Positions 26,779 through 28,798 of a stretch of 35,822 bases of DNA are shown in pieces. Source of the DNA: Candidatus Thalassarchaeaceae archaeon (GTDB lineage Archaea > Thermoplasmatota > Poseidoniia > Poseidoniales > Thalassarchaeaceae); the NCBI GenBank assembly GCA_030747395.1, contig JASLKT010000002.1, positions 39,177 through 74,998 on the forward strand. The letters are read 5' to 3'. Within the stretch, counting starts at the first letter, position 1. Each line of letters begins with the position of its first letter. The position numbers were made by a program, and so were the translations under genes. The notes beneath the pieces were generated by a model. It had not been told where the DNA came from. It worked only from the letters and a program-made list of their open reading frames with translations, and made no database searches.

Positions 26779-27758
26779 TACAATCCAATCTCCTGTATTA
26801 GTGTAGAAGCAGTGTGGCGAATGGCTTCCTCAGAATCGAAATTTGGGCCAAATCCTGTCGAGAATAGGGCCGTAGGGTCTAGCATCGTTTTGGGCACATC
26901 TCCAGCCCAGCCTCGATCGCCGCCAGTATATTCGATGCTGACATTTTCAAAGCCGGTTTCTTCGACAACAATTTCAGCAATTCGGCGGACACTGCAAGTA
27001 TCATGCGTGCCTAGATTGAAGCAATTGACCTGCTCATCTGTAGTCTCGGTTAGGTGAACCATCGCGCGTGCGCAATCCAGGACTTCCATGTACGATTTTT
27101 CTTGCCGGCCATTACCGAGCACCTCGAGTCGTGTTGAATCGGCCTTCAACTTGTGTATAAAGTCGAAAATAACACCATGCGTACCCCGCGCGCCCACGAT
27201 GTTAGCGAATCGGAACAACCAGGCCTTCAGTCCAAATGTACCCACCCAACTGGTAATCAGTGCTTCAGAACCTAACTTGCTTGCACCATACAAACTGATG
27301 GGGAACAATGGACCATATGATTCAGGGGTTGGCATCTCGGATGCCTCTCCATAGACCACGCTACTGCTCGAGAATGCGATGTTTTTCACATCCGCACATC
27401 GCATGGCTTCTAGGACGTTGTACGTTGCCACTGTTCCTTGCTTTAGATCGGTGTCAGTGACCCGGGTCCCCAAACGTATGTCTGGATTGGCTGCAAGATG
27501 GAAAACAAGGTCAATTTCACTCATTGCAGCCTTGACTGCATCAAGGTCGAGAAGGTCTCCTTCGATGAAATTGATTGATTCGCCATGGTGGGCGAGGAAT
27601 TCGTGCCGCCCACTGCTCATATTATCGAACACTGTTACAGTGTCTCCTCGGGCAACCAAGCGGTCAACGAGGTGTGAACCAATGAAACCGGCACCACCGG
27701 TCACGAGGACATTCATCATACTGACGACAGGGGAGTTGTTCTTCAATGCCACGTTCAA
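26778..27758 (-). CDS. NAD-dependent epimerase/dehydratase (UDP-glucose 4-epimerase-like SDR)
   Basis: MNVLVTGGAGFIGSHLVDRLVARGDTVTVFDNMSSG, YGASKLGSEALI catalytic YxxxK; true start likely MMNVLV/MNVLV near 27716-27719. Confidence 0.92.
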   Translation of the reverse strand: MNVALKNNSPVVSMMNVLVTGGAGFIGSHLVDRLVARGDTVTVFDNMSSGRHEFLAHHGESINFIEGDLLDLDAVKAAMSEIDLVFHLAANPDIRLGTRVTDTDLKQGTVATYNVLEAMRCADVKNIAFSSSSVVYGEASEMPTPESYGPLFPISLYGASKLGSEALITSWVGTFGLKAWLFRFANIVGARGTHGVIFDFIHKLKADSTRLEVLGNGRQEKSYMEVLDCARAMVHLTETTDEQVNCFNLGTHDTCSVRRIAEIVVEETGFENVSIEYTGGDRGWAGDVPKTMLDPTALFSTGFGPNFDSEEAIRHTASTLIQEIGL

Positions 27759-27772
27759 AGGTGTTTGGAATA

Positions 27773-28681
27773 CTAGTTGTCCTTTTGGGGAGAATTTCGG
27801 GATTTTCGTTTATCTTCCCGTTCCCGATTTTGTCTCTCTTGAATCTCTTTCTCTTGTCTCTCACGATTTCTGGTCCTGGACATCTTCTTTTTCGATGGGC
27901 GCCCCTTCAAGTGTGTTATTCGGCCACGTATGCGATTATCAAGCAGTAAGGTTCCGTAAATTCGGTCTTCGGGGCAGCATACAATGAGGACAGAGATACA
28001 ATCCTTGCTCAGATTGAGTTTATCGAACATGATGCCTTGAGAATGAGACTGTGAAAGGTGCTTTTGGATTTTATTTAACAAAAAATTATCCTTTGCAACT
28101 GTTTTGAATTCCACAGGGAAACTGTGCACCGAGTCGAAAGAAATTACGGCATCCGGTTTTGCGGGGTTTTTTCTATCGGAGTGTTCGTAGCTTTGGTTGC
28201 ATCTTTCGATGTGCTCGATATTATCGATCGCCTTCAGGAAAAAAACTTCGTACAATTCACCCCTGATGGAACCCTGTTTGGTCCTTTTTTTATTGTCCCT
28301 TCTTTTCAACCTCACCGTGCGTTTTGATGTGCGAGCAAAGTTTACCCTATAATGAGGGAAATACGCTTCGGAATCAGATTCATTGAAAAAATCAAAGATT
28401 TGTTTTGTGATTTTCTCCGTTTTCTTAGTCAACTCTTTGTTTAAGGACAAATCATTTTTGAGTGATTTTTCCAACTTCTTGTTCCTTTTCCAACTACCAG
28501 AATTTTCTGTTTTGACCCAGCGCTTTCTATGGCCACCGTGAATATGAATGGCATAAACCAAATTTCCGGATTCGCACACATCACAGCAGAAATCATTCAA
28601 ATCTAAATCACTAGGAATCTCATCCACATTGTCACAATCCAAACAGAGATATGGATCGGTGCATATTTCTTCAACTGTCAC
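27773..28681 (-). CDS. Putative Zn-finger/PD-(D/E)XK-like nuclease with basic C-terminal tail
   Basis: CLDC...CCDVC N-terminus; GELYEVFFLKA (E142), KPDAVI (D177), PVEFKTVAKDN (E191-x-K193) then IQKHLSQSHSQG; K/R-rich tail; visibly AT-richer than neighbours. Confidence 0.6.
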   Translation of the reverse strand: MTVEEICTDPYLCLDCDNVDEIPSDLDLNDFCCDVCESGNLVYAIHIHGGHRKRWVKTENSGSWKRNKKLEKSLKNDLSLNKELTKKTEKITKQIFDFFNESDSEAYFPHYRVNFARTSKRTVRLKRRDNKKRTKQGSIRGELYEVFFLKAIDNIEHIERCNQSYEHSDRKNPAKPDAVISFDSVHSFPVEFKTVAKDNFLLNKIQKHLSQSHSQGIMFDKLNLSKDCISVLIVCCPEDRIYGTLLLDNRIRGRITHLKGRPSKKKMSRTRNRERQEKEIQERQNREREDKRKSRNSPQKDN

Positions 28682-28798
28682 GTGTAACCCACTCTGTAAT
28701 GGGTGTTAAATTTTGGCAATGTGACAGAGTGCTATATTTGCCCGTAGGGCGGTTTTGAAAGGGAAGTCTTGAAATGCGTTCTCTGAAGCCCACCATTT

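Follow-up and report, generated by a model that had tools for sequence, protein, structure and literature searches.

The gene at positions 27773-28681 on the minus strand of the window (the whole 35,822-nucleotide stretch that was analyzed, part of contig C73 in a 1.6-Mb draft genome of the Poseidoniales, Marine Group II-type) encodes a predicted nuclease with a putative N-terminal zinc ribbon and a PD-(D/E)XK core. It belongs to a small new family within the very common and very large PD-(D/E)XK superfamily, and the sequence comparisons favor a single gene moving horizontally among Poseidoniales. Our assessment, held with slightly better than even confidence, is that the product is a metal-dependent, DNA-acting, stand-alone enzyme, a horizontally passed one-gene accessory module of the defense or processing type; its metal use, its DNA substrate and its role we infer. 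The open reading frame (ORF) is intact, with a GTG start, 302 codons and an undisturbed frame, as an earlier note made from the sequence alone had described, and the flanking genes are indeed an epimerase and a GT2 glycosyltransferase. The assignment of this coding sequence (CDS) to a zinc-ribbon and PD-(D/E)XK nuclease draws on the ORF, a family alignment, AlphaFold and Foldseek.

The gene is not strictly an orphan, as had been thought. A search of 319 genomes of the order identified four full-length relatives (in genomes G024, G182, G189 and G291; 29-38% identity to the window protein) and one fragment. An alignment-profile search of the order gave no further full-length member, a 390-genome draw from the phylum gave no member outside the order, and a conserved-peptide scan of 84,980 species genomes returned the same four relatives again. 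The genomes carrying relatives are Poseidoniales/Thalassarchaeaceae metagenome-assembled genomes and the Marine Group II chromosome CM001443. A presence/absence comparison across relatives, which the earlier note had proposed, reveals a patchy gene (5/319 genomes of the order) and not a core syntenic one. The fragment is a sixth, partial member at a contig end of G161 (L133/L019, C4), where the N-terminal 38 residues are 44% identical to the G291 protein; it is a true family N-terminus cut by the contig end. An N-terminal match in G234 was rejected as an unrelated multi-ribbon protein. A viral origin was likewise rejected, with no relative in phage and plasmid collections (tblastn) or in viral contigs, the latter examined by pattern scans of limited sensitivity that detect only close relatives.

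Alignment of the five divergent homologs shows ∼40 invariant residues, including all expected catalytic and zinc residues, and the pattern is therefore more than chance. In the N-terminal half these are C13, C16, C33 and C36 (residues 13-36, 28574-28645, minus strand, as are all features of the protein given here), which probably form a C4 zinc ribbon, followed by A44-x-H46-I-x2-G50-x-R52-K53-x-W55-x3-E59 and W64; the conserved extension H-I-x2-G-x-R-K-x-W-x3-E (residues 46-59) lies at 28505-28546. Two CxxC pairs had been recognized at the N terminus and both are present, except that the second is C33-x2-C36 and C32 is not conserved. In the core, the alignment and the AlphaFold models place the invariant R140-G141-x-L143-Y144-E145 on helix α1 (∼residues 129-152, 28226-28297), and Q211-S212 on helix α2 (residues 206-221, 28019-28066). 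The PD-(D/E)XK motif itself, invariant as P176-D177 and P189-x-E191-F-K193-T194 and reading P189-V-E191-F-K193-T194 in the window protein, lies at 28100-28156 and is also seen by profile-profile comparison. Beyond helix α2, C235-C236-P237 (27971-27979, at the end of the following strand), R240 and D248 are invariant. Of the catalytic residues named earlier, D177, E191-x-K193 and the Q in IQKHLSQSHSQG are invariant in all five homologs, while E142 is not conserved (E/K/A/A/A across the family); because of this variation, E145 is the likely helix-1 acid, and the invariant set becomes E145, D177, E191 and K193. The highly basic C-terminal tail noticed before (∼residues 260-302, 27776-27904, by alignment and AlphaFold) is present, and its first part is common only to the window protein and the G291 homolog.

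The predicted fold agrees with this assignment. Two AlphaFold models, both resting on 5 sequences, differ in the leading sequence: the window protein (pLDDT 71, pTM 0.64) or the G024 protein, which is shorter (pLDDT 81, pTM 0.77). The former contains helix 129-152, strands 178-182 and 186-194, helix 206-221, and strands 230-236 and 241-247; the latter has the same helix/strand order, and the α-β-β-β-α-β order of the PD-(D/E)XK core is present in both. RecB-like nucleases are expected to carry E, D, E-x-K and a helical Q in that order, and the window protein has the same order, with Q211 in the helix after E-x-K recalling their Q motif. Foldseek returned MGME1 and SSO0001/Cas4 as best PDB matches of the window-protein model and SSO0001 (Cas4, E 1.4e-4) as best PDB match of the G024 model, these fold-level matches being short with TM ∼0.3-0.4; against BFVD viral models, the best matches were Cas4-like and PD-(D/E)XK proteins. 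RmuC proteins from three genomes of the order are matched by the family profile as well (RmuC identity confirmed for one, PF02646, 2.2e-79); when profiles were compared with each other, E, PD and D-x-K-T of RmuC aligned with E145, PD and E-x-K-T of the family (prob 71, E 3.8e-5). RmuC is itself predicted to be a PD-(D/E)XK nuclease (PMC1189080). The PD-(D/E)XK reading of the earlier note, and the structure prediction by which it was to be checked, are borne out at the level of a predicted fold class.

The likeness to these relatives is partial. The S-V-R-G-x(3)-E ... PD ... IP-(I/V)-(D/E)-x-K-T pattern aligns with RmuC of the same order across a match of 62 columns only; unlike RmuC, the window protein has neither an N-terminal membrane helix nor a long coiled coil, bearing instead a zinc ribbon and a basic tail, and none of the five family members matches PF02646 in Pfam. 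Cas4/SSO0001 and MGME1, RecB-like PD-(D/E)XK exonucleases, are the best structural matches; yet Cas4 has a full set of four Fe-S cysteines around the nuclease core, whereas the cysteines of the family here are limited to CCP and the C4 ribbon at the N terminus, with no Cas4 family match in Pfam. In further contrast to Cas4 and MGME1, the nuclease gene has no helicase partner and no CRISPR genes were seen nearby. We considered whether the protein might be an accessory exonuclease of the RecB/RmuC type that serves DNA repair or recombination and has no role in defense, since RmuC is the closest profile relative and the closest structures are the repair/processing exonucleases MGME1 and Cas4. Core repair genes are less patchy, however, than this one, which occurs in ∼2% of the order and whose sites are unrelated, and no repair gene is common to the loci; we consider this explanation improbable.

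The evidence for movement comes from the insertion sites. The divergent epimerase/glycosyltransferase pair that flanks the gene is conserved in the genus. Similarity to same-genus genomes ends sharply at 27753-27757 and restarts at ∼28732-28740 in the closer ones, farther along in G088 and G086; only ∼29 bp separate the breakpoints in G090 (L022), an unoccupied site. The inserted segment, ∼978 bp at 27758-28735, is almost entirely CDS, and no terminal repeats or tRNA attachment site were found at it. Its 54-nt upstream part (28682-28735, minus strand) contains, by eye, an AT-rich TATA-like stretch (CAAAATTTAAC) ∼30 nt before the GTG, a possible promoter of a leaderless transcript. The junction is covered in 14 same-genus genomes, three of which (G090, G086 and G094) hold neither this gene nor another. 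The remaining 11 of 14 (L021, L023-L030, L032, L038) carry a different small gene of ∼85-90 aa (..NLLVGYVRRSNAGGAIK.SINTNAFGDCETYTTSDGQ..), which has no Pfam match and was not found in the window's genome.

At the other loci the neighbors of the nuclease gene differ in all five genomes. In G024 the insert consists of the nuclease CDS and four leader bases, and in relatives the flanks are joined directly at the stop of the upstream gene. In G182 a 1.35-kb stretch stands in place of 29 bp in the close relative G220; part of this difference is a DsrE gene, also found beside an HxlR-type regulator in G224, and the difference may in part be a loss in G220. In G189 the nuclease gene abuts TrmH, and in G200 (L057 2243-3700) the same slot holds a 485-aa HNH-type protein; the slot looks variable within genus g15. 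No partner gene is common to the five loci, and the only two-locus pairs involve ordinary genes, ribosomal protein L15e (G291/G189) and DsrE (G189/G182). In a separate observation, inspection by eye of G291 (L004 620-990) and L075 (∼2600-2960) showed a tRNA that carries an intron and the anticodon GTA; behind it lie three imperfect 62-nt repeats, at a spacing of 84-90 nt, resembling its 3' end. A relative that lacks the nuclease has a similar arrangement.

The gene tree crosses family lines: G024 (family f1) pairs with G182 (family f2) with support 98/97, though G182 and G189 are of the same genus, and the window genome G000 (f1) pairs with G291 (f2) with support 90/92. Together with the unoccupied sites, this cross-family tree leads us to favor horizontal transfer; an ancient duplication followed by many losses is possible and needs many more steps. 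Horizontal acquisition had been proposed before, in part from composition, and on that point the evidence differs. Compared with the other window genes, the nuclease gene is AT-rich as described (GC 0.406 versus 0.485 ± 0.017, ∼5 SD lower), but its GC3 of 0.455 equals the window mean of 0.455 and its codon usage is ordinary. The deficit sits at codon positions 1 and 2, and the AT-richness therefore reflects the amino-acid content of a protein rich in Lys, Arg, Asn, Asp and Glu (Lys and Arg make up 20%). Low GC was accordingly rejected as a sign of foreign origin. GC3 of the G182 and G291 homologs is below that of their surroundings (z -3.0 and -2.0). A connection with the 'Charybdis' mobile elements of Poseidoniales was also set aside, the main text of the article describing them (PMC12324425) mentioning neither nuclease nor zinc.

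Such insertion sites could equally be the work of a free-standing homing-type (selfish) endonuclease, which would cut alleles lacking the gene and be copied in by repair; the selfish reading accounts for the sites as well as our preferred one does. A lone gene lies between conserved genes, sites are unoccupied in sister genomes (G090 for the window, and relatives of G024 and G182), the G024 insert is a bare CDS right behind the upstream gene's stop, the neighbors vary, and the genus-g15 slot behind TrmH carries an HNH-type protein in another genome. The seg/mob free-standing endonucleases of phage T4 are similarly intergenic, often promoterless cassettes in junctions between conserved genes (PMC2988022). 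The catalogued T4 enzymes, however, are GIY-YIG or HNH and reside in phage genomes, whereas the family here is PD-(D/E)XK and is likened to them from gene positions. No flanking 8-mer was common to at least three of the five sites, any cleavage site being putative only, and in a compact genome the same picture could arise from any accessory gene that recombines. We therefore regard homing as unlikely, and are slightly more doubtful of its specific form, in which a zinc-ribbon and PD-(D/E)XK endonuclease would spread in Marine Group II as bare-CDS cassettes exactly at gene junctions.

The same inserts bear on the suggestion that the protein is related to CdiA-CT-type tRNA nuclease toxins. Some CdiA-CT toxins do have a PD-(D/E)XK core (PMC9086364), and the window protein is small and basic, as a CdiA-CT-type or toxin-antitoxin tRNA nuclease might be. 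Such toxins come together with an immunity gene and with the parts of CdiA that deliver them (PMC9086364); by contrast, the 302-aa ORF begins with the zinc ribbon and contains no CdiA N-terminal parts or pretoxin/VENN region. There is no adjacent cognate immunity gene, as the earlier note had itself remarked, and the inserts of G000 and G024 contain the nuclease CDS only, so that an immunity or antitoxin gene would not fit. Nor is there a toxin-family match in Pfam, NCBIfam or PADLOC, and the structural neighbors (Cas4, MGME1) are DNA nucleases. Because delivery parts, an immunity gene and a common neighbor are all lacking, we did not assign this archaeal family to CdiA-CT, with which it shares the superfamily fold only; the chance that it is such a toxin appears very small.

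We return to the reading of a stand-alone accessory nuclease. Nucleic acid would be gripped by the basic segments and by the zinc ribbon with its R-K-x-W extension, and the core of E145, D177, E191 and K193, with the help of Q211, would cut it in the manner of RecB/Cas4/MGME1/RmuC-type nucleases. DNA is our preferred substrate, and RNA is possible for the predicted enzyme. The module would spread horizontally among Poseidoniales, settle in gene-to-gene junctions, and attack foreign or damaged DNA. The earlier proposal of a defense or conflict nuclease stands as to the predicted nuclease fold, with defense as a possibility: the nuclease loci show no defense-gene neighborhood and no self-protection gene, and no PADLOC model matched the window protein even with E values as high as 10 allowed, the best value among the homologs being 0.0098 (LmuB). 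For these reasons the role assigned is a guess.

The abundant Poseidoniales of the ocean are uncultured archaea in which the movement of single genes, like the means of resisting viruses, is poorly understood. This nuclease family offers clean occupied and unoccupied sites, one insert that is nearly exactly a CDS, and a predicted nuclease that can be tested. Should it prove to be of the homing type, the range of free-standing homing would grow to include PD-(D/E)XK enzymes of marine archaea; should it be a defense enzyme, it would add a one-gene system.
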